Shown piece by piece: positions 9,483 to 39,089 of a DNA stretch of 64,000 bases. Source of the DNA: Niabella sp. (lineage in GTDB: Bacteria; Bacteroidota; Bacteroidia; Chitinophagales; Chitinophagaceae); NCBI GenBank assembly GCA_027493055.1, contig JAPUDO010000012.1:55669-119668 (forward strand), written 5' to 3'. Below the pieces are notes generated by a model. It worked only from the letters and a program-made list of their open reading frames with translations, ran no database searches and was not told the DNA's origin. Position 1 is the stretch's first letter; each line of letters begins with the position of its first letter. The translations under genes and the position numbers were made by a program.

Positions 9483-9872
9483 TTATTCACTTTCCATAAA
9501 ATCATCCAGGTCCCGGCGTTCTTTTTTAGTAGGGCGGCCGATTTTGCTGAGGCGCTTACCGCTAAAAAATGAAGCGGCCTGCACTTTGGCTTTTTCCAGC
9601 TCTTCGGGCGGGGTCAGGTCAACATAGTTTTTGATGGCCTCTTCGTACTTCACGCGGGTATGCAATAAACCTACAACTTTTATTACCCATTTTCGGCCTT
9701 CGGTACGTACATCGTAAATATCACCCAGGTGCACGTTTTTGCCGGGCTTGGCGGGCTCGTCCTGGTACTTCACTTTATTGTCGTTGCAGGCATCGGTAGC
9801 CAGCCGCCGGGTTTTGAACAGGCGGATAGACCATAAATATTTATCAAGGCGTAATTTTTCTGTATCTGCCAT
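9483..9872 (-). CDS. S4-domain RNA-binding protein (Hsp15-like)
   Basis: A 129-residue protein with an S4 RNA-binding domain at residues 6-65 ([22 protein letters not shown]) and a basic tail ([21 protein letters not shown]). It resembles Hsp15/HslR, which binds stalled 50S subunits that still carry peptidyl-tRNA. Its ATG overlaps the stop codon of the upstream AbiEii-like gene by one base (TGATG), which suggests translational coupling. A housekeeping gene coupled to a toxin-like gene is an odd arrangement. Confidence 0.88.
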
Positions 9873-10498
9873 CAGCTTAGTTTATAGTCATTCACAGCTT
9901 TTAATATTGCTTCCTTCAACTTTTCCCAATCGGGAAATGGCTGAATACAAACAGGAGACTCTTCGTTATTGGCATCCTCAAAGTATTGTAAGCTCTTTAG
10001 CGCCATCCATGAATTATCCGACATATATTTTTCATCATAAAAATTCAACAGCTCTCTTAAAGAAAACATCTTCAGTAAAGCGTAAATATCGTAAAAATCT
10101 TTTTTGCTTCCCCTCCCACATATCGCATTTAGCTTCATGGCAGCAATATCTTCCACCGAATACAAATGAATGTCGTCAATACGTTGTGTGGGACGTATTG
10201 TCTTTACATTAGCGTAATTCACAAAATCGCATTTAATGCCATTAATATGGCAAAAAATAAAAACTTTTGTTGTTCTCCTTATTGTTATTCCAGGGTAATC
10301 ATTTTGTAAAAGCAAAGCGGTTTCTTCCATGTCAGCCTGCGTGAACGCAAACATATCGGCATCTATACTTTGACGATGGCCAATTTGCAAGGCCAGTGAA
10401 GTACCTCTCGCTAAAGCAAAATTTCTAAGATAATCAGCTGCTGAAAATTGCTCCAGGAGCCTGTTCATTTTTTCGTCAATAGTATTGAGATGGAGCAT
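9872..10498 (-). CDS. AbiEii-like nucleotidyltransferase (putative toxin)
   Basis: A 208-residue protein of the AbiEii/AbiGii family, nucleotidyltransferases that act as toxins or abortive-infection effectors by modifying tRNA. The signature region reads ALARGTSLALQIGHRQSIDADMF. The usual GGT-x-LAL begins RGT here, while the S-x-DxDxF acidic pair is kept. The later VEDIAAMKLNAICGRGSKKDFYDIYAL segment is also typical. It overlaps the upstream 95-codon gene by 23 bases, like an antitoxin-toxin pair. Confidence 0.85.
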   Translation of the reverse strand: MLHLNTIDEKMNRLLEQFSAADYLRNFALARGTSLALQIGHRQSIDADMFAFTQADMEETALLLQNDYPGITIRRTTKVFIFCHINGIKCDFVNYANVKTIRPTQRIDDIHLYSVEDIAAMKLNAICGRGSKKDFYDIYALLKMFSLRELLNFYDEKYMSDNSWMALKSLQYFEDANNEESPVCIQPFPDWEKLKEAILKAVNDYKLS

Positions 10499-11112: not shown

Positions 11113-13059
11113 TTGAGAAGAATTGCTTTATTTATATTTTTAGTAATTGATTTTTTGAGTGTGAACGCTCAAACAGGCATTTGCGGCTTTGATCCGATAC
11201 ACAGGCAGCAAATTGCTTCTCCCGAAAACCGTAGTATAGTACATCAAATCAACAGTGCTATTGCAGTTAAACAAAATAACTTACGTTTACGCAGATCCGT
11301 CATTTCAGGTAAATCCGCAGTTTATGAGATACCGGTTGTTGTACATGTGGTTCACTCCGGTGAAGCCATCGGAACCCCATACAATCCATCCGATGCTACA
11401 ATCAGGCAAATGATTGATTTTGTAAACAGGGCTTACAGCGGTGAGGTTGGTGGCAACGGGGTGAATATTCCTATAAGGTTTAAACTGGCGCAGCGGGCTC
11501 CTGATTGCAGTCCTACAACAGGTATAATAAGGGTAGATGGCAGTGTAATTGCCGGTTATGCTGAAAATGGTTTAGTTTATTCCGGAAATGCTACCGGTGC
11601 ATCAGATTTGGCTCTTAAAAATTTGAGCCGGTGGCCTAATACGGAATACTATAACATCTGGATAGTTAAAGATATTAAAGCTATAGGAGTGCCTGATGGC
11701 GCATACATAGCGGCCTATGCTTACTTTCCCGGCGGCAGTGCCAGCAGGGATGGAACCGTAATGCGTTTCAATACTGTTAATTCTACATCTGCTACATTGC
11801 CACATGAGCTAGGCCATGCGTTTGCACTGTATCATACTTTTGACGACGGAAAAGATGAAGAAACCTGTGCAGAAAATACAGACTGTGCCAGGCAGGGAGA
11901 TATGGTTTGTGATACAGATCCTCATCTATCCATGCTGGGAACCTGTCCTAATCCGGCCAACATCAACCCTTGTACAGGAACACCATTCGGCACACTCCCT
12001 TTCAATATCATGAACTATGGTACCTGCAGAAACCAGTTTACACAGGGGCAGGCCGACAGGGCCTTAGCAGCACTATTGACCAGCAGGGAAAGCTTAATTT
12101 ATTCACAGGGAGGAAATGCCCCCCTCAGCAGCGTAGCGAAACCTTCCTGCACAGCATCTGTAGAAGTAGTACAATCCAGGAATGCGGCTGATATTGGCCC
12201 TAAAGTTATTGAAATTGTTGGACAGCTTTACAATAGCTCCAATGGTTACAGTAAAGATGGATATATCGGCTATATAGATAATAGCTGCAAAAAAGAAGCT
12301 AAAATGGACGTGAGCAACAGCTATATATTGAACGTGTCTACCTCACCCAACCGCCAGAGGGTTAAAGTTTGGATAGACTGGGATAACAGCGGATCATTTG
12401 ATGCCACAGAGCTGGTCATGAACAGTATGTCGCCTTCAGGAACTTATGTTCATACGGATACTTTAAAGCCAGCTATGATGTCAAAGGCTATTATTAATAC
12501 GCCATTGAGAATGAGAGTAGCCTCCGATTTTTATGACAGTCCGGATTATGATGCCTGTTCTCAACTGCAGTTTGGGCAGATGGAGGATTATACCGTAGTC
12601 TTAAGCTCTACGATTCCTGTCCGGTTTGGCAGCATCACTGCTTCCAAAACCAATAATAACCACCTGGATATTAACTGGACCACGATATCTGAAATTAATA
12701 CGGGTTATTTTGAGCTACAGGTTTCTAACGATGGCGCTACTTTTAAAACTATCGAAAAGGTCTACTCAAAAGGAGCTACTGGCAGCTCTAATGAAGTTTT
12801 ATCCTATTCTAATTCAATTAATTATACAAACACAGGTGTTCTGGGCCTGTTAATCATCGGATTATCGGGCATGGCCTTATTTAAAAGAAAGAAGTGGGGA
12901 TATATGGGCTTATTCTGCTTTGGTATTCTTTACCTGGCATGTAATAAAAAAGAGCATACTGACCTTCCGGAAAAGGATGTTTTTTTAAGAATTGCCCATG
13001 TTGATACCCATCAAACCATTACCTATTCACCCGTTATTAAGGTAGATAACCAGAAATAA
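11113..13059 (+). CDS. Secreted M43-type zinc metalloprotease
   Basis: A 648-residue exported protein starting at TTG; the signal peptide ends near VNAQ (residue 20). The metzincin zinc site is H231-E-L-G-H235 with H241, followed by the Met-turn region FNIMNYGTC, as in pappalysin/cytophagalysin (M43) enzymes. A GEVED-type domain lies near 385-500 (VWIDWDNSGSFDATEL to MEDYTVVL). The C-terminus lacks a clear sorting domain; instead there are two hydrophobic segments and LYLACNKK. It shares a promoter element with the metal-uptake operon that follows and with hmuR, so I infer co-regulation. Confidence 0.88.
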   Translation: MRRIALFIFLVIDFLSVNAQTGICGFDPIHRQQIASPENRSIVHQINSAIAVKQNNLRLRRSVISGKSAVYEIPVVVHVVHSGEAIGTPYNPSDATIRQMIDFVNRAYSGEVGGNGVNIPIRFKLAQRAPDCSPTTGIIRVDGSVIAGYAENGLVYSGNATGASDLALKNLSRWPNTEYYNIWIVKDIKAIGVPDGAYIAAYAYFPGGSASRDGTVMRFNTVNSTSATLPHELGHAFALYHTFDDGKDEETCAENTDCARQGDMVCDTDPHLSMLGTCPNPANINPCTGTPFGTLPFNIMNYGTCRNQFTQGQADRALAALLTSRESLIYSQGGNAPLSSVAKPSCTASVEVVQSRNAADIGPKVIEIVGQLYNSSNGYSKDGYIGYIDNSCKKEAKMDVSNSYILNVSTSPNRQRVKVWIDWDNSGSFDATELVMNSMSPSGTYVHTDTLKPAMMSKAIINTPLRMRVASDFYDSPDYDACSQLQFGQMEDYTVVLSSTIPVRFGSITASKTNNNHLDINWTTISEINTGYFELQVSNDGATFKTIEKVYSKGATGSSNEVLSYSNSINYTNTGVLGLLIIGLSGMALFKRKKWGYMGLFCFGILYLACNKKEHTDLPEKDVFLRIAHVDTHQTITYSPVIKVDNQK

Positions 13060-13101: not shown

Positions 13102-13118
13102 TTTCCGCATTTCGTAAA
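13102..13118 (+). promoter_or_regulatory. 17-bp dyad operator candidate, copy 2
   Basis: Identical to the word at 11055-11071 and exactly 37 bases upstream of the perfect -7 element TAATTTTG at 13139-13146. The flanking sequence differs from copy 1, which argues against simple duplication of a large block. Confidence 0.7.
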
Positions 13119-13138: not shown

Positions 13139-13146
13139 TAATTTTG
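13139..13146 (+). promoter_or_regulatory. -7 element TAATTTTG of the TonB receptor operon
   Basis: Perfect TAnnTTTG. It overlaps the first possible TTG start of the receptor frame (13144), so translation should begin further downstream, most likely at the TTG at 13165. Confidence 0.6.
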
Positions 13147-13164
13147 CCATTTGAAAAATCAGCT

Positions 13165-16131
13165 TTGGGAAGAAATGCATGGCTTTATGGGTTAAAATTT
13201 GTTTTGATTGTGGCATTGCAACAAATAGCCATACTTTCTAATGCCCAGTTTTCAATAAGCGGGAAAATATTGAATCAAAAAAACAAACAGCCGCTCAGCG
13301 ATGTTTCTATCACTATTGCTGAAACTGATTTGTGGGCAGTAACCAATCATAACGGCATATTTAAGATAGATAATATCCCATCCGGAAAAAACATAATCAG
13401 AATGAGCAGATTGGGTTTTTCAGCCATTTCTTTTGAAGTTGTTATAGATAAAAATATAACCGACACTGCTTTTTTCCTGAAAGAAAGTAATCTGACTTTA
13501 GACGATGTTTCTGTTACTGCTATATTAAATAAAACCACTTCCACCACTTTTACCATTGACAGAACAGCATTGGATCATATACAAATGACCAGCGTAGCTG
13601 ATGCCATGCAGCTTTTGCCTGGCGGAAAAACTAACAAAACCCTGCACCTGGCAACATCTGGTGCCCAAAATATTGCTGTTATCGGGCGTAGTGGAGAAGA
13701 TGGCAACCCTTTATTTGGTGCGGGAATTGAAGTAGACGGCGTAAGACTTTCTCCTAATGCTATACCAGGCACCACTGCTGTGGATATCAGAAACATAGCA
13801 TCTGCCAATATTGAAAGTATTGACGTAGTAAAGGGTATTGCGTCTGTGGAGTATGGCGACATGACCAATGGAATATTAAAAATCAATACACGAAAAGGCC
13901 CTACAAAGTATATATTGGAGTTATTAACGAAGCCTAATACCAAGCAGGTGGCATTGAGCAAAGGTTTTGATCTGGGCGCACGAAAGGGCATATTAAATGC
14001 AAGCCTGGAGCATACAAAATCTATTTCCAATATTGCGGCTCCCAATACCTCTTACGACAGGAACAGCTTAACACTGAAATACTCCAACACGTTTAATCAA
14101 AAAACAAAGAAGCCTATATTATTAGAAATAGGTTTAACAGGTAACATAGGAGGTTATGACACGAAATCTGATCCGGATAAATTCGTCAATACATATACAC
14201 AGTCAAAGGATAACGTACTGAGAAGTAACATTTCAGCAAAATGGCTGTTGCATAAGAAATGGGTCACGAATCTTGAAGCATCGGCCTCTGTGAATTACAA
14301 TAATCAGCAGTCGGAAAGCAGCATTAATAAATCGGCATCAGCATCTGTTGCGGCGTTACATGCTATAGAAACAGGTTATTTTGTAGGACAAACTTATGAA
14401 CAAAACCCTAATGCAGAGGTGCTTTTAGTGGCACCCGGATATTGGTATGAAAAGTCTTTCAACGATAGCAGGGCGTTAAACTACAATGCAAAAATTAAAG
14501 CCAACTGGACTAAAAAAATGGGTGCTGTGTTTAACGGTTTACAGTTAGGCAGTGAATATACAGGCAGTAAAAATAAAGGAAGAGGATCCTATTACGAAGA
14601 TATGCGGTATGCGCCTACCTGGCGGCCCTATGCGTATAGCCAGGAACCATCTATTAACAATTATTCTGTGTGGGCCGAGGATAAATTAAGAATACCCATT
14701 CGTCAAACATATTTGCAATTAGTGGGCGGGTTACGTTCTGATTTTACAAGCGTTAACGGATCAGAATATGGTACAGTATCAAGTGTATCGCCCCGTTTTA
14801 CTGCCAGGTACACTATTCGTCAAAACAGGAAAGATGCGGTATTAAGTGATTTAAGTGTATGGGGAGGATGGGGCAAGTCGGTGAAACTCCCCTCTTTTAA
14901 TATTTTGTATAAAACACCGGCGTACAGGGACATCTTAACTTTTGCTCCGGGCACTACATCAACAGGAGAAACCTTCTATGCCTATTATAGCACCCCTTAT
15001 ACCAAGATCTACAACCCTGATTTAAAATGGCAAAACAATATTCAGTCGGAAATAGGAGTGGAATTTAAGATATCAGGAACCTCCATTACTATTATAGCAT
15101 CGCAATCAAAAACCCGCGATCCTTATAGTGGCCAGAATGTATATAACCCATTTACTTATAAGTTTACCGATCAATCGAACCTGGAGAACAGTCAAATACC
15201 GATCGCCAACCGCATTTATGCTGTAGACAGGAATACCGGTGTGGTAACGGTAACAGATAAAACAGGGGTATTAGCCAGTGAAACGCTGGGATACAGGGAA
15301 TACATAAGAGCTAATTCCAGCACCAAACCCATTAACGGCGCTCCTGCATTGAGAAAAGAGCTGAGCTGGATCGTGCAATTTAAAAGGATCCAATCACTAA
15401 GAACTTCACTGCGCTTAGATGGTTCCTATTATAGTTACAGATCTGTTGATCCGATAGAAAGGGCTAATATGCCGGGTAGCACAACATTTATGCCCGATGG
15501 TAATTATTATAAGTATATTGGGTTCTACTCCGGTGGTGCAGTATCTGCAAATGGTAAAAAAACAAAGAACCTGGATATGAACGTTGTAGCTACCACACAT
15601 ATCCCGGCCATAAGGCTAATCATCTCTGCAAGACTGGAAACAGCTATATATACAATGTCTCAAAACCTGAGCGAAGCAAACGGTACGCAAAGAGGCTTTG
15701 TGCTGGATAATGTAAACGACTACTTACCATCAACAACAAAAACCGATATATACGGCAGAGAGCGGTTTGTAGGCTTATACCCTGATTATTATATAAGCTT
15801 AGATGACTTAAATGCCCGCGTTCCTTTCTACGAAAAATTTATATGGGCAAAGAGTAACGACCCCGCTTTATATAATGAGCTGGCAAAGCTTGTAGTAAGA
15901 AGTAATACTAACTATTATTTCAATCCCAACAGAACCTCATTTTATTATTCGGCTAATATAAATGTAACCAAAGAGATTAAAGATTTCGCTTCTATTACAT
16001 TTAGCGCTACTAATTTTTTGAATAATATGAGCAGGGTGCACTCGAGTTGGTCAAACTCAGATTTCACTTTGTACGAAAGCTCTTATATCCCTGCTTTCTA
16101 TTATGGACTTTCTTTAAGATTAAAATTTTAA
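13165..16131 (+). CDS. TonB-dependent outer-membrane receptor
   Basis: About 988 residues. The signal peptide ends near ILSNAQ, then a carboxypeptidase-regulatory-like domain (FSISGKILNQKNKQPLSDVSI), a plug with DGVRLSPNAIPGTTAVDIRNIASANIESIDVVKG, and a large beta-barrel ending in LSLRLKF. There is no SusD partner. It is followed by a DUF4876-like lipoprotein, a barrel protein and a cytochrome c peroxidase, a gene order met in several Bacteroidota and thought to concern metal or metal-complex uptake; the substrate is not known. The frame is open to 13144, but that start lies inside the -7 element. Confidence 0.9.
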   Translation: MGRNAWLYGLKFVLIVALQQIAILSNAQFSISGKILNQKNKQPLSDVSITIAETDLWAVTNHNGIFKIDNIPSGKNIIRMSRLGFSAISFEVVIDKNITDTAFFLKESNLTLDDVSVTAILNKTTSTTFTIDRTALDHIQMTSVADAMQLLPGGKTNKTLHLATSGAQNIAVIGRSGEDGNPLFGAGIEVDGVRLSPNAIPGTTAVDIRNIASANIESIDVVKGIASVEYGDMTNGILKINTRKGPTKYILELLTKPNTKQVALSKGFDLGARKGILNASLEHTKSISNIAAPNTSYDRNSLTLKYSNTFNQKTKKPILLEIGLTGNIGGYDTKSDPDKFVNTYTQSKDNVLRSNISAKWLLHKKWVTNLEASASVNYNNQQSESSINKSASASVAALHAIETGYFVGQTYEQNPNAEVLLVAPGYWYEKSFNDSRALNYNAKIKANWTKKMGAVFNGLQLGSEYTGSKNKGRGSYYEDMRYAPTWRPYAYSQEPSINNYSVWAEDKLRIPIRQTYLQLVGGLRSDFTSVNGSEYGTVSSVSPRFTARYTIRQNRKDAVLSDLSVWGGWGKSVKLPSFNILYKTPAYRDILTFAPGTTSTGETFYAYYSTPYTKIYNPDLKWQNNIQSEIGVEFKISGTSITIIASQSKTRDPYSGQNVYNPFTYKFTDQSNLENSQIPIANRIYAVDRNTGVVTVTDKTGVLASETLGYREYIRANSSTKPINGAPALRKELSWIVQFKRIQSLRTSLRLDGSYYSYRSVDPIERANMPGSTTFMPDGNYYKYIGFYSGGAVSANGKKTKNLDMNVVATTHIPAIRLIISARLETAIYTMSQNLSEANGTQRGFVLDNVNDYLPSTTKTDIYGRERFVGLYPDYYISLDDLNARVPFYEKFIWAKSNDPALYNELAKLVVRSNTNYYFNPNRTSFYYSANINVTKEIKDFASITFSATNFLNNMSRVHSSWSNSDFTLYESSYIPAFYYGLSLRLKF

Positions 16132-16163
16132 AATATCAAATGGCAATACAAAAAACAACAAAT

Positions 16164-17504
16164 ATGAAAAATGTAATTTACCTGAGTATTTTTTCTTTGT
16201 TAATACTCTTTTCGTGTAAGAAAGATAAGGAGGACAGCTATCCTACTTACAAAGTATCCGTACAGTTAACAGATACTTTAAATAATAATTTTACTGACGT
16301 AACCGGTGTGAGTGTAAAACTATCCAACAACACTACCGGAGATGTATATAATGCTACATCCGATGCCAACGGTTTAGCCGTATTTCAAGTACCGGTAGGC
16401 ATTTATAAAGCATCGGCCAGCACTACCCAAACTGATGGGGCGCAAAAGATAGTATACAATGGTAATTATGATAAAGATATTACAGTTACCAACACTTGGA
16501 CCGGAACCGACATCGCAAAGATAAAACTTGTAAAAGCTCAACTATCCCAGGTTATTATAAAGGAGGTTTTTGTGGGAGGATCCCCAAAAGATGATGGATC
16601 GGGAGTAAATGATTATGATGGTTATATTATTTTATATAATAACTCAGATGCTTCAGCAACTTTAAATAACCTATGCATTGCAACCCCTCATCCAATTACA
16701 TCAACCGGAACAAATAATTATATTGATCCAAACGGAAAACTAAGTTTTGAAGATGAAAAATGGTTTCCAGCTCTTTGGGGATTTTGGTTTTCAAAAAGCT
16801 CAATAACACTTCCGCCCGGCAAACAAATTGTGATAGCTACAGGAAAGGCCATTAACAATACTGTTACTTACAGTAAATCTATTAATTTCGACAACCCGGA
16901 GTATTATGCTTTATACGATTTAACGTCTGGATTTACCGATGACAGATATTATGTTGCTCCAGCTGCTTCTATTCCAAGTAGTCATTTTTTTAAGGGAATT
17001 AAATTTCCCGGTGTAACAACTACTGCATGGCTGCCAGGCGCTATCACAAGCCCAGCTGTTTATATTTTTGTTCCTAAAAACACTACGCCCGAATCATTTG
17101 GTGCCGATGCATTAAATATGGATATGATAACCGGACATCCAAGCTCTACTAGTAAGAAGGTTCCTTTTGATTGGATTTTGGACGGTGTTGAAGGGTTCAG
17201 TTCGGGGAGCGCCAACAACAAAAAGAGATTTCCTTCAATAATTGATGTAGGCAATGTCCCTTTTAAACAAAGGGAAGGCTATTCAATTTACCGCAATGTG
17301 GATAAAGCAGCAACAGAGGCTATTGCTGGTAATGCAGGAAAATTAGTATACAATTATTCATTAGAAACACTGGATACAGATGACAAAAGTAATATTGATG
17401 CAGAGACCTCTATTAAAAACGGGGCTCGTATTGTTTATATGGATAATAACAACTCTACTTTGGATTTTCATGTACGCAGTAAGGCTTCTTTAAGAACCAA
17501 TTAG
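16164..17504 (+). CDS. DUF4876-like surface lipoprotein
   Basis: A 446-residue lipoprotein with lipobox LLILFSC. An N-terminal Ig-like or carboxypeptidase-regulatory domain (YKVSVQLTDTLNNNFTDVTGVSVKLSNN) is followed by a large domain with YDGYIILYNNSDASATLNNLCIA, which has a lamin-tail-like look. The longer frame from 16047 would overlap the receptor by 85 bases; the ATG at 16164 gives a clean signal peptide. It probably acts with the receptor encoded just before it as a surface substrate-binding partner. Family assignment rests on pattern and gene order. Confidence 0.8.
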   Translation: MKNVIYLSIFSLLILFSCKKDKEDSYPTYKVSVQLTDTLNNNFTDVTGVSVKLSNNTTGDVYNATSDANGLAVFQVPVGIYKASASTTQTDGAQKIVYNGNYDKDITVTNTWTGTDIAKIKLVKAQLSQVIIKEVFVGGSPKDDGSGVNDYDGYIILYNNSDASATLNNLCIATPHPITSTGTNNYIDPNGKLSFEDEKWFPALWGFWFSKSSITLPPGKQIVIATGKAINNTVTYSKSINFDNPEYYALYDLTSGFTDDRYYVAPAASIPSSHFFKGIKFPGVTTTAWLPGAITSPAVYIFVPKNTTPESFGADALNMDMITGHPSSTSKKVPFDWILDGVEGFSSGSANNKKRFPSIIDVGNVPFKQREGYSIYRNVDKAATEAIAGNAGKLVYNYSLETLDTDDKSNIDAETSIKNGARIVYMDNNNSTLDFHVRSKASLRTN

Positions 17505-17513
17505 CAGTTATAT

Positions 17514-19124
17514 ATGTGTTTTAACAAACAGACATTAAAATACATCTTCATTCCTGGCGGGGCTTTTTGCTTCGCCATGAATGTTTTTGCACAGCAGGCA
17601 GATACCGTTTTATATGATCTGAACTATATCAAAAACAGCAACGTTTGGCTGGGCAGTAAAAATGCTGCGGGATTACAGTTTGTTCCTGTTAAGAAAGTAT
17701 CAACGGCCACATTGGGTTTTCAGAAATCTGATGGCGGATTTAAAAATTATTCACAGTCGGATAATAGTTATCAATGGGGCGCCAATACAGAATCATTCTA
17801 CCGGTTAAATAAAAATGTAATGTTGTACGGCCTGGTTAACTATGATAACTATAAAGGAAAAGATATGCAGGGATCTGCCTTGGTAGATCCCTCAAAACAC
17901 CCGCTGAGTTTTGAGGATAATGCGGATACTACTTTTGGTGATAAAAAACTGGAACAGTATCACCTTACCGGTGGTGTAAGTGCTCAGCTAAGTAAAAGAT
18001 TCATATTAGGAGGTAACGTTAATTACAAAGCCGGTGATTATGCCAAACTCAAAGATTTAAGATATCAAAACCGGCTTTTTGATTTAGAGGCTTCATTGGG
18101 AGGGTTATACAAAGTGAGTAATAGTATGGAGCTTGGTATAAATTACAGCTATAATAAACGCGTAGAAAGTCTGAAATTTGAAATACATGGTAATACAGAT
18201 AAACAGTATTTGGTTTTTATAAATTACGGTGATTTTTATGGTACTACAGAACTCTTTGGTGAAGAAGGTTATACAAAAGACAAAAGGCCCTTTGTAAACA
18301 ACACAAACGAAATTTCTTTACAGGCGAATATAAAAATATCCCCTGAGGTTGAGTTTCTAAATGAGTTCTCCTTTGGCACAGGAAAGGGATATTTTGGGAA
18401 AAAAGGCACTACTGCTATTATGTTTACAGAGCATGATGCCAATAACTATGGATATACCGGCACATTGCAGTTAAGAAAACCCGGCAACTTACATCAGTTT
18501 AAATTAAATGGCACATACAAATCATTAATTAATAATTTAAATGTTTATCGTAGGGAAACCACTACAGGCGGCGTGTCAACCATTGTTTATTATGGGCAAA
18601 ATGAGGTTTTTACACAGGACCTTACGAATGCCTCTTTAGGATATTGGGGCTACTTAGGACTAATAAATAATATTGCCCAATGGGTCATTAATTCGAGTAT
18701 TGATTATACAAATAGAAATCAAAAAACAACAATATATCCGTTCTATAGAAAACAGGATTTATCTTTTTGGAAAATCGACGGTATGGCAACGAGAAACATT
18801 ATTCAGGCAGATCACATGTGGAGCTTTTCATTTGGCTTAGCCGCAGCTTCCGGCAGTGGTGGTAGATACACTGATGCGTTATACCAAACACCGTCTGCGG
18901 ATCAAAGAGCGCCGGCATCGAGAGAGACTTACCTGAACCAGGAATATGAGTTTTTAACTAAACCGAGGGTAACAGTTGAACCGGCAATACAATATAGTAA
19001 GCTGGTTAATAATAATATGGCGGCTTATATTAAGCTGGGCACCAGGTATACACGGGCTTTTGACGTTTCTTATTTAGGCAGGTCTTATAACAATGCAAGC
19101 CTTTCAATAGGTTGTTTCTTTTAA
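17514..19124 (+). CDS. DUF6850-like outer-membrane beta-barrel protein
   Basis: A 536-residue protein with a signal peptide ending at NVFAQ and alternating amphipathic strands to a C-terminal Phe (SLSIGCFF), as expected for an outer-membrane barrel. It starts 9 bases after the DUF4876-like gene and ends 17 bases before the peroxidase, so the four genes read as one operon. I do not know its activity. Gene order suggests a second pore or an assembly partner of the receptor. Confidence 0.8.
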   Translation: MCFNKQTLKYIFIPGGAFCFAMNVFAQQADTVLYDLNYIKNSNVWLGSKNAAGLQFVPVKKVSTATLGFQKSDGGFKNYSQSDNSYQWGANTESFYRLNKNVMLYGLVNYDNYKGKDMQGSALVDPSKHPLSFEDNADTTFGDKKLEQYHLTGGVSAQLSKRFILGGNVNYKAGDYAKLKDLRYQNRLFDLEASLGGLYKVSNSMELGINYSYNKRVESLKFEIHGNTDKQYLVFINYGDFYGTTELFGEEGYTKDKRPFVNNTNEISLQANIKISPEVEFLNEFSFGTGKGYFGKKGTTAIMFTEHDANNYGYTGTLQLRKPGNLHQFKLNGTYKSLINNLNVYRRETTTGGVSTIVYYGQNEVFTQDLTNASLGYWGYLGLINNIAQWVINSSIDYTNRNQKTTIYPFYRKQDLSFWKIDGMATRNIIQADHMWSFSFGLAAASGSGGRYTDALYQTPSADQRAPASRETYLNQEYEFLTKPRVTVEPAIQYSKLVNNNMAAYIKLGTRYTRAFDVSYLGRSYNNASLSIGCFF

Positions 19125-19141
19125 ACGTATTTTTGTAACCC

Positions 19142-20281
19142 ATGCGTAAAACTTATCTGGCTGTAGGAGCGATCATTGTATTAGGTATGATGTCTTTTTC
19201 ATACACTAATTATTCGGCGCAGGTATTTAAAAGCTATACTGATTCACTACGAAGCTTATACAGCCGTTCCATCAGCCAATGGCCGCAACCAACTATTGAT
19301 TCAGGCGCTGTCTGGTCTGAAATGGCAGCCATTCCTAAAGACGATACTTCCTGGTCAAAATCTGATAAAGACCCGGTAACACGTCTGGGCATGTTCCTGT
19401 TCTTTGATCCCAAACTATCCGGCTCCAACCAGATCTCCTGCAGCAGCTGTCATGATCCGGACCTGGCATGGCAGGACGGACGGGTGATTGCATTAGGTAA
19501 TGATCACTTACAGGGCAACCGCAATACACAAAGCCTCCTGAATGTATTTATCTATCCCAAACTGTTTTGGGATGGCAGGGCCACCAGCTTTGAATCGCAA
19601 ATGGTAGAGCCGCTTAGCGCGCACCACGAAATGAATATGGACGTACCAACATTGGGTGAAAAGCTGGCTAAAATAAAAGGATATCAGGCACTATTTGAAA
19701 AAGCCTATGGCAGCCCTGAAATAGATTTTGATAAGATAGCAAAAGCGCTTACAGCTTTTCAAACAACTATTAAAAGCCGCAGCACACGCTTTGATAAATT
19801 TATGAGCGGCGATCACGATGAATTTACCGATGATGAAGTGGCTGGCCTGCATTTATTCCGCACCAAAGCCCGTTGCATGAACTGCCATAGCGGACCTTAT
19901 CTTACAGATACCTCTTTCCATAATATTGGCCTTACTTATTATAAAAGAAAGTTTGAAGATCTGGGCCGCTATAACATAACCAAAAAGAACGAAGATGTAG
20001 GCAGGTTCAGAACGCCTTCCTTACGCGAGCTGGAAAGAACCCGCCCCTGGATGCACAACGGGCTATTTGATAACCTGGAGGGCGTGGTAAATATGTATAA
20101 CAGCGGTATGCCGCAAAAGCCCAAAACAGAAGAGCAAAAGAACGACCCGATGTTTCCTCAGACAGACCGGTTATTAAAACCACTGAACCTCACCCAACAG
20201 GAAAAAAAGCAGCTGGTAGCATTTTTAAATACCTTAACCGGCGTGCCTTACCGGATGCGCAGGCCGGAGATTCCAAAGTAA
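19142..20281 (+). CDS. Di-haem cytochrome c peroxidase
   Basis: A 379-residue exported protein of the bacterial cytochrome c peroxidase/MauG family. Two c-type haem sites are visible: C100-S-S-C-H104 and C245-M-N-C-H249. The N-terminus is hydrophobic. The family reduces hydrogen peroxide with electrons from a small cytochrome, or oxidises protein residues as MauG does. Its place at the end of a metal-uptake operon suggests either protection from peroxide during metal import or redox change of the imported metal; this is inference. Confidence 0.92.
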   Translation: MRKTYLAVGAIIVLGMMSFSYTNYSAQVFKSYTDSLRSLYSRSISQWPQPTIDSGAVWSEMAAIPKDDTSWSKSDKDPVTRLGMFLFFDPKLSGSNQISCSSCHDPDLAWQDGRVIALGNDHLQGNRNTQSLLNVFIYPKLFWDGRATSFESQMVEPLSAHHEMNMDVPTLGEKLAKIKGYQALFEKAYGSPEIDFDKIAKALTAFQTTIKSRSTRFDKFMSGDHDEFTDDEVAGLHLFRTKARCMNCHSGPYLTDTSFHNIGLTYYKRKFEDLGRYNITKKNEDVGRFRTPSLRELERTRPWMHNGLFDNLEGVVNMYNSGMPQKPKTEEQKNDPMFPQTDRLLKPLNLTQQEKKQLVAFLNTLTGVPYRMRRPEIPK

Positions 20282-34939: not shown

Positions 34940-35833
34940 TTATTGAATATGTTTAGCTAAAACACCTGCTAACGTAGTATTTACATTGCCGGCGGTAAGC
35001 GTTTTAGCCTTCCAGTCATCTGCCAGCTTAAAAAGTGTATTCATCAGTTCATTATCGTTCACCAGCTTAATGGTTGATTTGGCGCTTAACACTTTATCCC
35101 ATTCCTGCTGCACAACGGTCCAGAAGCCTTTATGCTCTTCCCAGTATTTTGCTGCCGCTTCACAATCAGCCTCATCTGCTTTTTCGTAAAGGTTCAGGCC
35201 TTTTTCCTCTGCAATTATCTTATCAGAACCATTAGCCCGAAGCACTTTTTTATTGTCCTGAATATGATCGTAGCCATCGTTTTTAACAACTATCCTGTTC
35301 GTACGGTTCAGGATATTATAATCCGAGCGATGGGTGTATTCTCTGCGTGGAAGCGGGGCGTCCGCGGTATTTTCCCATATAGTATGACCATTCACCAACT
35401 GCCAGGGGGCAGAACCCTGGTAGCGCGGCGCATCGGTTACTTCCCATACGGATTGCGACCATTTACCTTTTACATCGTTCTTGTTCAGGTTTACTTTTTC
35501 CCATACTTTATCACCTTTATAGTTCCATTGTACAGGATTTTCGTAAGACCAGTCCTCGCGCCAGTGTTTTACCACCATGCCATTACCCACCACCAGCAGG
35601 TGCTGTATCACCACTCTTTTGCTGGTATTGACAATAGGCAGCGCCAGCTCGGTGGCTCCCTGTATTTTTTCCCTGTCGTGAAACTTATAGTCCTTATCCG
35701 GTGAAAAAGTTTCAGCGTACTTAAAAGTCACTTCAAAGCAGCCGCAGAGCTTATCGATATTTTCTTTACCTGTTTGAGCGGTTGCAGAAGCAGACAATGC
35801 AGCGGCTACCGCTATACTAAAAATCCTCTTCAT
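34940..35833 (-). CDS. DUF6607 exported protein
   Basis: A 297-residue protein with a signal peptide ending at ATAQ, resembling DUF6607. The core holds KHWREDWSYENPVQWNYKGD and PLPRREYTHRSDYNIL. It is the third gene behind hmuR and hmuY with a 29-base gap, a known arrangement in Bacteroidota haem loci. The function is not established; a periplasmic role in haem handling is inference from context. Confidence 0.82.
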   Translation of the reverse strand: MKRIFSIAVAAALSASATAQTGKENIDKLCGCFEVTFKYAETFSPDKDYKFHDREKIQGATELALPIVNTSKRVVIQHLLVVGNGMVVKHWREDWSYENPVQWNYKGDKVWEKVNLNKNDVKGKWSQSVWEVTDAPRYQGSAPWQLVNGHTIWENTADAPLPRREYTHRSDYNILNRTNRIVVKNDGYDHIQDNKKVLRANGSDKIIAEEKGLNLYEKADEADCEAAAKYWEEHKGFWTVVQQEWDKVLSAKSTIKLVNDNELMNTLFKLADDWKAKTLTAGNVNTTLAGVLAKHIQ

Positions 35834-35862: not shown

Positions 35863-36936
35863 TTACTTGATTAACTCATATTGTATTTGGGGTTTGCCAC
35901 GCGTACCGCCGTCAGCTGCAATAAAACTGATAAATTTTAGCTTATATAAATTTCCAGCGGCATCTTTTACTACATAAAACCTGCTTTTTCTGATACCCGC
36001 AGGCTCACCACCACTGGCAACTGTTAGTCGCCAATTGCTGCCTATTGTCATTCGGTCATTAGAGAAGCTATATTTTGCTACACTATCCTTATTGAATTTT
36101 GTATATGCGTCCGCTGCGACTTCTGCGGAAGCATAAACCCTTTCAAATGCAGTAGTACCTCCCAAATTATTGGTGAGCACTATATCTGAAAAACCATATG
36201 GGATATAGCCAGTCTCGGTAGAAAATGTTTGATAAACATTCCAGCTCCAGGTAATATCCCAGGTTTCTTTTTGCGGTTCTACATTCACCAGGGCTCCTGT
36301 AAATAAAGAAACAAATTGAAAGTTATAGTCGCTATTTTTGCTAATATCTAATGATTTAAAAGTAGACTCTTTCAATTTAGCATATTGTAACGAGTAGCCG
36401 GTTCCTTTCCTTAACACTCTTATCTTGAAAACACTATCTACAGGTACAGGTACATAATTTGTAAGTCCCTTAGCATTTATTATATAAACTTTATTATTAG
36501 CGTCTGTTGCTGATACTTCAGCTATCACTGTTTTAGTTAATATATTGGCTTCTCTTGGATCGTCAATTATTGTAAAAGAGCCTGCACCCTGCCCTATTTT
36601 TAACACATTCAGGTCTACATCTGCTTCCGTTACTGCATTAAGATCGGTTTTATTAACCACCGTTGCAGTAACAGCCTTTGTACTGTTTAAAACTATTTTG
36701 AAATTATCCCCGCAATAAAACCCTAAATCCCAGCTATTCCGCAAAACGCTTGTTTGTTTATCTGTACTAAAATCTACAAATACCGAGTTTTCTGCATTAG
36801 CTCCTGCATTGGTGGTGGTTCCGTTCAACTCCATCGTTGAGCCATTAGACGGCGGTACAATAATCACAGGGTCTTTATCTTTACTGCAGGATACCAAAGC
36901 AGCAACTGTCACTGATAATAATAATAACTTCTTCAT
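35863..36936 (-). CDS. HmuY-family haem-binding lipoprotein
   Basis: A 357-residue lipoprotein with lipobox AALVSC. The HmuY-like core is seen in the SWDLGFYCGDNFKIVLNSTK and WDITWSWNVYQTF segments. HmuY proteins bind haem at the cell surface and pass it to HmuR, encoded five bases upstream. The haem ligands of the Porphyromonas protein cannot be placed with certainty from this sequence, and many HmuY relatives use other ligands. Confidence 0.88.
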   Translation of the reverse strand: MKKLLLLSVTVAALVSCSKDKDPVIIVPPSNGSTMELNGTTTNAGANAENSVFVDFSTDKQTSVLRNSWDLGFYCGDNFKIVLNSTKAVTATVVNKTDLNAVTEADVDLNVLKIGQGAGSFTIIDDPREANILTKTVIAEVSATDANNKVYIINAKGLTNYVPVPVDSVFKIRVLRKGTGYSLQYAKLKESTFKSLDISKNSDYNFQFVSLFTGALVNVEPQKETWDITWSWNVYQTFSTETGYIPYGFSDIVLTNNLGGTTAFERVYASAEVAADAYTKFNKDSVAKYSFSNDRMTIGSNWRLTVASGGEPAGIRKSRFYVVKDAAGNLYKLKFISFIAADGGTRGKPQIQYELIK

Positions 36937-36941
36937 GGTTT

Positions 36942-38993
36942 CTATTTTGAATTTTTATTTTTACTAAACTGATAGGCGATCCCTAAAAAATAAGAGCGGC
37001 CATAGCTGATAGGCGCAGGCCCCCCGGTGCTGTGCGCGCCACCGCTGCCAGCGGTATTATTAATACTGCTTATATCGAAAATATTTTTAACCCCCGCCTG
37101 GAGTGTAACGGTGCTAAACAATATTTTGGAAACGGAAAAATCGGCCCAGTTAAAGCTGCTGAGCCCCTTAAGTTCCACATCAGTAGGGCTGTTGTTCACC
37201 ATCTGATATGCTTTCCTTGCGCCGGAGTATTTATACATCAAAGCCAGGCTGGTCTTTATTTTGCTGATGCTGTAAAAAATATTGGCGTTCACTTCGGGCG
37301 ACCAGTTAAATGCCGGTACTTCCCTGCTGAGTCCTTCTTCATTGCTTAAATCATTATAGCGACCTACCAACAGAGCGCCTATACTTAATTGCAATTGTTT
37401 GTACATAAAGCCCTGCTCAAAAGAAATACCCGTGGTTTTAAATTTCGATACATTGAACAACCGGGTTGTTGTATTATCAGCAGGATCAAGCGCATAATCT
37501 ATCAGATCATTGAACACACTATAAAAACCGCTTAATGTGCTCATGGCTTTAATACCATTTTGATTATAGCTCCAGGCCAGCGAGCCATTAAAGCTGTTGG
37601 AAGTTTCAGCTTTCAGGTCTTTATTACCTAATATGGCATGGTTGGCATCAATAAAATCGAAGTACAGCTCTCTTAACGCCGGGGCCCGGTATCCTTTTGC
37701 ATACGATAATCTTACATCCATATTATCCGACAACCTGATCTTCGTATTGAGCGCAGGAACAATGGGAGGCGCATCATACAGGGAGTTTTTTATCAGCCTG
37801 AATCCCGGGCGAATATTAATATTGTTCACCGGCTTCCACTCGGCAGAAGCAAATAACGCAAAATCGTTGATCACCGGTGAACCTTCAATCCTGGCACCGG
37901 AAGCAGCATTATGATTGAACTCTATACCGGGCTGAAAAGATAATTTTTCGTTTACCGTATAATGTCCCTGTGTTCTGAAAAACAGGGTAGTGAATATCGC
38001 GGTATCCTGCTCTCCTGCACCAGTAGTCAGCTCATCGGTGTTGTTTGTAAAATTGTGTCGCGTGCTCCTGGTGCGGCGACTGTAATCAGTATAAGATGCT
38101 GATGTGTTTAAGTGAAACCGGGAGTTGATATGCCAGTCATCCTGCACCTGGTGCATCCAGCGGCGGGTAATATAGCGCTGATCAAAAGCTTTGAAGGATC
38201 CCATGTTAATGGCCCCTTTTGATGTAATGGTTTCGTCTAACCCGTCAAGCCTGTAGTACACTGTATTTTTTTCACCGCGATGACCTAATGTAATGCTTCC
38301 TAAATATTGCTCCTTGGGTTTCCATGCTTTAGCCCTGCCGTAATCATCGCCGCCAAATCCCCTGAAATCATTGTGCGTAAAACCGCCGTTCACAAAAAAT
38401 GAACGCTGCGCATAAGAAGCATTCACCGATTGCAGGTGCAGACCCTTGTTGCCAAAAGGATCGTATTCTTTCCCTGCTGTTTCTTCCTGCACGCGCGCAC
38501 CTGCGCTGAACCATGCATTATTATCTTTTTTAGTAATAATATTAATAACACCAGCTAAAGCGTCAGAGCCATAAATAACGCTCATAGGCCCTTCTACTAT
38601 TTCTATTCTTTCCACGCTTTGCAGATCGATCTGGTTCAGACTTTCGCGGGTATCATTGCGGTCAGTAACCGGAACACCATCCAGCAGGATCTTGATGCTG
38701 CGCCCGCTCATACCCATCAGCTGCACATCGGTAACACCCAGCGCATTATCATTGCTGAAACGGAAGCCTAATTCAGTGTTGAGCACCTGTGTCATATTAA
38801 GCGCCGCTTTTGCCTTGATCTGTTCGGCGGTAATTACTTTTATTTTATACACAGAGTTCTTTAAAGACTGTGGCTGGTACTGGCCGGTAGTAACGGTTAC
38901 TTCTTCCAGCACAGCCGATGTATCGGTTTGGGCTGATAGCTGCAGGACAGCGCCTGATATTGTAACAGAGATAAGTAGAAGTTTACACAACAT
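36942..38993 (-). CDS. HmuR-like TonB-dependent haem receptor
   Basis: A 683-residue outer-membrane receptor. The signal peptide ends at LQLSAQ; the plug carries VTVTTGQYQPQSLKNSVYKI and ILLDGVPVTDRNDTRESLNQ, then a barrel ending at LGIAYQF. It lacks the N-terminal extension of SusC-type receptors. The frame extends to a TTG at 39047, but the ATG at 38993 gives the better signal peptide and lies 29 bases past the -7 element. The partner genes are hmuY and DUF6607. Two dyad operator copies sit upstream. Confidence 0.9.
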   Translation of the reverse strand: MLCKLLLISVTISGAVLQLSAQTDTSAVLEEVTVTTGQYQPQSLKNSVYKIKVITAEQIKAKAALNMTQVLNTELGFRFSNDNALGVTDVQLMGMSGRSIKILLDGVPVTDRNDTRESLNQIDLQSVERIEIVEGPMSVIYGSDALAGVINIITKKDNNAWFSAGARVQEETAGKEYDPFGNKGLHLQSVNASYAQRSFFVNGGFTHNDFRGFGGDDYGRAKAWKPKEQYLGSITLGHRGEKNTVYYRLDGLDETITSKGAINMGSFKAFDQRYITRRWMHQVQDDWHINSRFHLNTSASYTDYSRRTRSTRHNFTNNTDELTTGAGEQDTAIFTTLFFRTQGHYTVNEKLSFQPGIEFNHNAASGARIEGSPVINDFALFASAEWKPVNNINIRPGFRLIKNSLYDAPPIVPALNTKIRLSDNMDVRLSYAKGYRAPALRELYFDFIDANHAILGNKDLKAETSNSFNGSLAWSYNQNGIKAMSTLSGFYSVFNDLIDYALDPADNTTTRLFNVSKFKTTGISFEQGFMYKQLQLSIGALLVGRYNDLSNEEGLSREVPAFNWSPEVNANIFYSISKIKTSLALMYKYSGARKAYQMVNNSPTDVELKGLSSFNWADFSVSKILFSTVTLQAGVKNIFDISSINNTAGSGGAHSTGGPAPISYGRSYFLGIAYQFSKNKNSK

Positions 38994-39022: not shown

Positions 39023-39030
39023 CAAAATTC
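39023..39030 (-). promoter_or_regulatory. -7 element GAATTTTG of hmuR
   Basis: Seven of eight to TAnnTTTG on the minus strand. It lies exactly 37 bases downstream of the start of the proximal dyad element, the same offset as at 13102/13139 and 11055/11092. Confidence 0.5.
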
Positions 39031-39050
39031 TGTTTAACGGTCCGCAATGA

Positions 39051-39089
39051 TTTGTGAGATCGGGAAAAACTATTTACGAGATCGGGAAT
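39051..39089 (-). promoter_or_regulatory. Two dyad operator copies upstream of hmuR
   Basis: On the hmuR sense strand, TTTCCCGATCTCACAAA (39067-39051) and ATTCCCGATCTCGTAAA (39089-39073) match TTTCCGCATTTCGTAAA at 12 and 13 of 17 positions. They are spaced 22 bases apart, two helical turns. They also lie upstream of the divergent lipoprotein gene at 39178. Confidence 0.65.

Follow-up and report, generated by a model that had tools for sequence, protein, structure and literature searches.

The promoter of a predicted haem-uptake operon

We analyzed a stretch of 64,000 nucleotides from Niabella sp. (hereafter, the window). It includes a predicted haem-uptake operon on the minus strand, and the promoter of this operon contains two similar words of 17 nucleotides. 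The features are, from the distal word to the end of the operon:

39073..39089, minus strand: distal half-site, ATTCCCGATCTCGTAAA (letters read directly)
39051..39067, minus strand: proximal half-site, TTTCCCGATCTCACAAA, 22 bp from the distal copy
39023..39030, minus strand: -7 box, GAATTTTG (consensus TAnnTTTG; aligned with 10 other sites)
36942..38993, minus strand: TonB-dependent receptor similar to HmuR, with plug and barrel (the ATG at 38993 is our own reading of the start; the listed open reading frame begins at 39047)
35863..36936, minus strand: HmuY-family protein (PF14064)
34940..35833, minus strand: DUF6607 protein, the next gene on the same strand, which we took as the end of the haem operon

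The receptor's top match in NCBIfam is TonB-hemin, at a score under that model's cut-off. Read along the minus strand from 39089 to 39023, the promoter consists of ATTCCCGATCTCGTAAA, 5 bp, TTTCCCGATCTCACAAA, 20 bp, and GAATTTTG, so the proximal half-site ends 20 bp ahead of the -7 box, inside the -33 region. TAnnTTTG is described as the -7 consensus of the phylum Bacteroidota (accessible part of PMC9723704).

An earlier note on this DNA had placed the two copies 22 bp apart, with the proximal copy starting 37 bp ahead of GAATTTTG, and both distances are exact. It had also compared the copies with a word at 13102-13118 (TTTCCGCATTTCGTAAA), and by base count, the distal copy is identical at 13 of 17 positions and the proximal copy at 12 of 17, as claimed. 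The note called the word a dyad, which is wrong: in an alignment of 11 sites, and in the 64 sites that we read in detail (see below), the conserved unit is a direct repeat. For the same reason the site is unlike a Fur-type palindrome, as the note had said. (A Fur box is an AT-rich inverted repeat, and the conserved columns do not form one.)

More broadly, the site consists of two units of about 17 bp (TTCCCGATNNCGTAAA) with a spacing of 21-22 bp, and it precedes the Bacteroidota -7 box by a fixed distance. Each half-site contains two sub-sites, CCCGAT and CGTAAA, about one helical turn apart. An AraC-type operator is a direct repeat of half-sites, about 21 bp apart, with two sub-sites in each, by the -35/-33 region. 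The site in the haem promoter has this form: a direct repeat at about 21 bp, two sub-sites in each half-site, and a position adjoining -35/-33.

A weaker site in the window

The word at 13102 lies ahead of another operon:

13102..13118, plus strand: single weak half-site, TTTCCGCATTTCGTAAA, with no second copy 22 bp upstream
13139..13146, plus strand: -7 box, TAATTTTG, 37 bp from the start of the half-site
13144..20281, plus strand: genes for a TonB receptor (Plug), DUF4876, DUF6850, and a MauG-like protein; possible weak member of the regulon

With its start at 13144, the reading frame as listed overlaps the -7 box, so the true start is further in. The start of the half-site is 37 bp ahead of TAATTTTG (at 13139), which is the same offset that the earlier note had reported for the haem promoter. 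The half-site has 3 mismatches to the word that recurs in this genome, and at that level, there are 16 matches in the genome versus 10 for the reversed control. When we ran a profile of the site (R1, described below) on the window, 13102 scored E = 0.0032, and a match of neighbouring rank, in a coding region, scored E = 0.0057. By itself, the score of 13102 is at chance level; its exact geometry and the kind of operon behind it favour a site, which we consider plausible but weak. A relative (G135) has a strong double site before a TonB receptor and then a MauG-like gene; that receptor does not match the one at 13144 in the window.

The idea that a shared site links haem uptake to a protease and to the operon at 13144-20281 holds up only in part. 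The operon is weakly linked, by one half-site at the right spacing. The tie to the protease is unsupported, as the protease gene (11113-13059) is upstream of the 13102 site and ends before it. Elsewhere in the window (9872-10498, minus strand), there is a gene for an AbiEii-like nucleotidyltransferase, from a type IV toxin-antitoxin family.

Strong sites in the same genome

We searched the 5.75-Mb genome (G000) for the exact double word, TTCCCGAT-N14-TTCCCGAT, and found 3 occurrences. The reversed control gave 0, so chance is an unlikely source of the pair at hmuR. (If up to 3 mismatches are allowed, the search has little power, with 62 matches versus 44 for the control.) By eye, each of the three exact double words precedes a TAnnTTTG-like box at the same distance. 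What follows is the haem operon, a lone gene for a DUF6686 protein (L057), or a stretch with no recognisable protein gene (L058), which ends in a terminator-like hairpin. The fourth strong site has one perfect unit and a poorer second unit, and lies ahead of a siderophore-receptor operon (L059), which encodes a receptor that scores above the cut-off of TIGR01783, an esterase, and a PepSY_TM protein. At these four sites, as well as at 13102, the proximal unit is 20-21 bp from the TAnnTTTG-like box (by eye).

The four strong sites account for 5 of the 14 matches in our first word search, with TCCCGATCTC (L002, L004, L005, L006, and L008). Another five (L001, L003, L007, L009, and L010) were rejected because, by eye, they lack a promoter-like context, and the remaining four (C89 twice, C103, and C119) were outside this reading. 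We also dropped a weak site (G000:C76:60544) that has no box at the fixed distance. We rejected the idea that the repeat is the end of a mobile element, because the part that is common to the regions before these unlike genes is only the site and its spacing. The DUF6686 gene that is under the operator (L057:8138-8470, minus strand) encodes a CxxC motif, and a DUF6686 gene is under the operator in G119 as well (L206).

Spread of the site in the family

Across 195 genomes from the same family (Chitinophagaceae, judging by the names of orthologues), the exact double word has 14 matches, in 12 genomes, while the reversed control has 0 in all 195. For three of the 14 matches (L061, L062, and L069), inspection by eye showed no -7 box where one is expected; we took these to be due to chance and excluded them from the model. 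We used 11 aligned sites to train a profile from sequence alone (R1). Because the haem site was part of this training set, its score against R1 is no evidence in itself. The site in G113 (L070) was withheld from training as a test, and R1 recovered it with E = 4.9e-7.

R1 has matches with E ≤ 0.01 in 122 of the 195 genomes and with E ≤ 1e-4 in 77 (counted by hand; 8 of these genomes had contributed training sites), which leaves 118 genomes with no site at E ≤ 1e-4. As a control, we scanned a draw of 295 genomes from the class, which includes at least 7 members of the family. There, 44 genomes matched at E ≤ 0.01, and 39 of these were outside the family. All of the matches at E ≤ 1e-4 were within the family (G000, G014, G034, and G004), and the best match outside it had E = 2.4e-4. 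We scored 15 candidates per genome in this draw, versus 24 in the scan of the family. Given the class-draw matches outside the family at E ≤ 0.01, and that none of these reached E ≤ 1e-4, we trust only matches with E ≤ 1e-4.

We read 64 sites that were not used for training: 62 of the 63 such sites with E below 1e-6 (excluding G113), as well as the sites from G193 and G014. The spacing of the repeats is 21 bp in 34 sites, 22 bp in 27, 23 bp in two, and 20 bp in one. In 49 of the 64 sites, TTTG lies 32 bp past the second TTCCCGAT, a spacing that is partly built into the profile. The half-site consensus over the 64 sites is TTCCCGATTGCGTAAAY. One genome (G018) has two R1 matches just 0.4 kb apart.

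Most of these sites precede genes for receptors. For 60 of the 64 sites, an open reading frame of at least 100 codons starts within 400 bp downstream. The 60 proteins include 43 with the Plug domain of TonB receptors, 5 with PepSY_TM, and 2 with DUF4856, along with one each of HmuY, DUF6686, ABM, and a pyridine-nucleotide oxidoreductase. One of the 60 reading frames is probably spurious (L222) and another encodes a tRNA synthetase (L182).

An AraC-family gene next to the site

In G113, an AraC-family gene lies directly ahead of an exact double-word site. Its counterpart in our genome is G000:C24:67243-68067 (L107), which is 40% identical over residues 60-335 of the query; the next matches in the genome span only the C-terminal part. 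Across the family, 194 of the 195 genomes have a match to this AraC protein at E ≤ 0.001. In five genomes (G045, G083, G193, G014, and G113), the site follows the AraC match on the same strand, at 8-22 bp from its end, with the site in G193 reaching only E = 1.4e-4. In G045, G083, and G193, the order is gyrB (on the opposite strand), AraC, site, and TonB receptor. PepSY_TM is the next gene after the receptor in G083, and an ileS-like gene for a class I tRNA synthetase lies further along in G193. In G014 and G113, an ileS-like gene follows the site and there is no receptor. A more distant AraC gene, in G017 (35% identity), has a site within about 14 bp; this site has E = 8e-6 in a 55-kb search and E = 2.8e-4 genome-wide.

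We also collected 80 named AraC loci. (The nearest named orthologues of L107 are from Niabella, and at least three of the 80 loci, L327, L275, and L295, are on contigs that are also in the 195-genome set.) Most of the 80 loci have no R1 match. Among the 14 matches with E ≤ 1, 10 are on the AraC strand, 18-610 bp behind the reading frame (P = 6e-13, binomial test, with the matches treated as independent). At E ≤ 0.01, 8 of 10 matches are on the AraC strand and behind the AraC gene.

The linkage is not universal. None of the four strong sites in our genome adjoins an AraC gene. Four other genomes (G010, G013, G019, and G021) have a strong AraC orthologue and no site even at E ≤ 0.01, with filters strict enough to lose weak matches.

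L107 belongs to the AraC family: like a Niabella orthologue, it has a C-terminal HTH_18 domain with two helix-turn-helix motifs (PF12833, at C24:67249-67479). A Niabella orthologue shows 62% identity over the best-matching segment. Both sequence and fold support the DNA-binding domain. In comparisons of folds, the full-length protein gives TM-scores of about 0.3-0.4, while the DNA-binding domain alone gives 0.7-0.85. The structure model for the regulator is of moderate quality (mean pLDDT 76.4, pTM 0.52), and no claim about a metal site rests on this model.

Overall, the conserved orthologue L107 is the most likely regulator. The earlier note had guessed that the regulator may be new, and we found no description of such an AraC regulator, or of the direct-repeat site, in the portion of the matching open-licence papers that our searches covered.

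A loop with five cysteines

The N-terminal half of the orthologues contains five cysteines with the pattern C-x6-C-x(3-6)-C-x(2-3)-C-x(5-9)-C. The five cysteines are kept in 45, 45, 41, 45, and 44 of 45 aligned rows (which were pre-filtered by similarity and include some genes twice). The loop is also present in 76 of the 78 named loci that have a full reading frame (from 80). This pattern suggests a metal or iron-sulphur site, and the loop might act as a sensor. In seven of the genomes that have a match at E ≤ 1e-4 (G001, G026, G050, G056, G101, G140, and G171), we found only a homologue that has a very similar DNA-binding domain but no such loop (by eye, in all 7). The loop is thus dispensable for the site. 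A sister group of AraC proteins (L343-L355) keeps the DNA-binding domain and lacks the five cysteines.

How the site may work, and what else could read it

It is quite likely that the pair of half-sites serves an AraC-family regulator as its operator, and that this regulator governs an iron-starvation regulon within the family. The site, its geometry, the genes behind it, and its linkage to an AraC gene can be read directly from the genomes; from these, we infer binding, activation, iron as the signal, and the five-cysteine loop as its sensor. AraC-type monomers bind through two helix-turn-helix motifs, about one turn apart. Two monomers would sit head to tail on the DNA, at a distance of two turns, and the two motifs of one monomer would contact the CCCGAT and CGTAAA sub-sites. 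As the proximal monomer would reach the -33 region, we expect class II activation of the TAnnTTTG promoter. (Overlap with the -33 region is typical of class II activation, as in AraC and MarA/SoxS.) In iron shortage, the regulator would activate the genes for TonB receptors, PepSY proteins, and proteins of haem uptake, along with small RNAs. Our choice of iron as the signal comes solely from the target genes.

The regulator might instead be an AraC protein that senses a siderophore or haem, as PchR-type proteins do, and not iron itself. The targets are mostly receptors, and AraC-family activators of siderophore uptake are known: PchR in Pseudomonas, AlcR in Bordetella, and Btr in Bacillus. Within one genome, however, the site stands before receptor genes of different kinds, haem genes, and loci without a protein, which better suits a general iron signal, so we consider this rather unlikely.

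It is improbable that Fur, or a DtxR/MntR-like repressor, binds the site and that the AraC gene is merely near members of the regulon. Our genome does encode one FUR-family protein, and a HmuY-type operon of Flavobacterium psychrophilum is iron-repressed, with Fur suspected, not shown, to be responsible (PMC9331221, in the part available). But the site has direct repeats at 21-22 bp and no inverted repeat, and it recurs right behind the AraC gene. Also, the Fur orthologue of Porphyromonas gingivalis, Har, is reported to play little part in iron homeostasis and to control none of the known iron-homeostasis genes except hmuY, which is down about 2-fold in the mutant (available part of PMC4222909). 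This leaves room for another regulator in the phylum. The earlier note, which listed Fur, DtxR/MntR-like, and Crp-like regulators for binding tests, was wrong about the kind of regulator to look at first, because the site is an AraC-type direct repeat.

Finally, a different direct-repeat binder, either a LytTR response regulator (whose sites have a fitting spacing of 21-22 bp) or another AraC paralogue (our genome has 54 matches to PF12833), is very improbable as the reader of the site, given that the L107 orthologue recurrently adjoins it, in a search that covered the L107 gene and considered other AraC genes only within the loci at hand.

Comparison with known iron regulators

An AraC-type reader of the site would resemble PchR, AlcR, and Btr in its DNA-binding domain, in having iron receptors as targets, and in its direct-repeat operator, which the known AraC-type siderophore activators share. 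It would differ from them in that one regulator seems to serve many receptors as well as protein-less loci. Also, in several genomes, its gene lies at a gyrB-AraC-site-receptor locus, and most of its orthologues have the five-cysteine loop. NCBIfam models, including Btr, match these proteins only far under the cut-off. Btr gives 44.8 bits for the protein from G113 and 36.8 bits for our own protein, versus a cut-off of 900, so the models do not assign them to the known AraC-type iron regulators.

The haem operon itself resembles HmuR/HmuY of Porphyromonas and hfpR/hfpY of F. psychrophilum, where a TonB receptor is followed by HmuY and the genes are linked to iron. The regulator of HmuR/HmuY is reported to be CdhR (PMC10434189, available part). 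The regulators named for these systems are CdhR, in part Har, or the suspected Fur, and the passages we cite name no AraC protein and no operator of this type (parts of PMC10434189, PMC4222909, and PMC9331221). Another iron-linked regulator, the MerR-like activator MliR, is described from a flavobacterium (PMC9478572, in part), and control by iron shortage in Bacteroidota is described as little known (PMC10434189, likewise in part).

If an AraC-type protein does read the site, this would account for the way in which these bacteria turn on iron scavenging. The analysis provides an operator of defined form, a single candidate regulator that has a possible sensor motif, and target promoters in dozens of genomes, together with candidate iron-linked small RNAs.

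Candidate small RNAs

The protein-less locus in our genome (L058:7272-7432, minus strand, outside the window; small RNA at G000:C12:23431-23271) is about 150 nucleotides long, from the -7 box to the terminator-like hairpin. Using the sequence from the -7 box as the query, we found 7 copies in 6 of 17 genomes from the genus. Ten of the 17 genomes have no match, and in G199, only a coding stretch matches. By eye, all 7 copies have a double site upstream, including those in G200, G198, and G202 (two), whose double sites came to light only with this search. The 3' core (AAGCAGATAGTTTTCGAGA) and the hairpin are nearly invariant across the 7 copies; in G022, A-T replaces G-C within the hairpin. The fold of the whole locus is not unusually stable: its z-score against shuffled sequences is -0.67, and 47 of 200 shuffles are as stable. 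None of the five loci that we tested gave a match at the gathering score of an Rfam family. Sites with a terminator-like hairpin behind them also occur in other genera, as judged by eye: two in G106, a tandem pair in G187, and others in G096 and G014.

We view the L058 locus as a candidate iron-linked small RNA, and the regulon probably includes small RNAs. RyhB, PrrF, and FsrA are iron-responsive small RNAs; RNAs of this kind are stand-alone transcripts with a terminator, which iron limitation induces and which repress proteins that use iron. The candidate would resemble them in its short presumed transcript, iron-linked promoter, terminator-like end, and conserved stretch. Unlike them, it is under an AraC-type site, not Fur. 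Among Bacteroidota, studies of P. gingivalis have looked at small RNAs under haem conditions (PMC6231650 and PMC12119571, available parts), and some small RNAs of F. psychrophilum are said to accumulate with blood (PMC9331221, part). The portion of the open-licence literature that we covered contains no RyhB-like small RNA from Bacteroidota with a known regulator.

A bolder proposal is that the five-cysteine AraC protein, as a sensor of iron or iron-sulphur, is the master activator of the iron-starvation response in Fur's place for much of the family, and drives RyhB-like, iron-sparing small RNAs via the same promoter. We offer this tentatively, at somewhat short of an even chance.

The 5' part of the small RNA also has a 20-nucleotide sense match to a coding stretch that we read as nuoL (G199 and G119; L339 and L341), which we set aside as probably due to chance. 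In the tandem pair in G187 (L244, on G187:C22), each of the two protein-less units has its own copy of the operator and a similar 3' hairpin.
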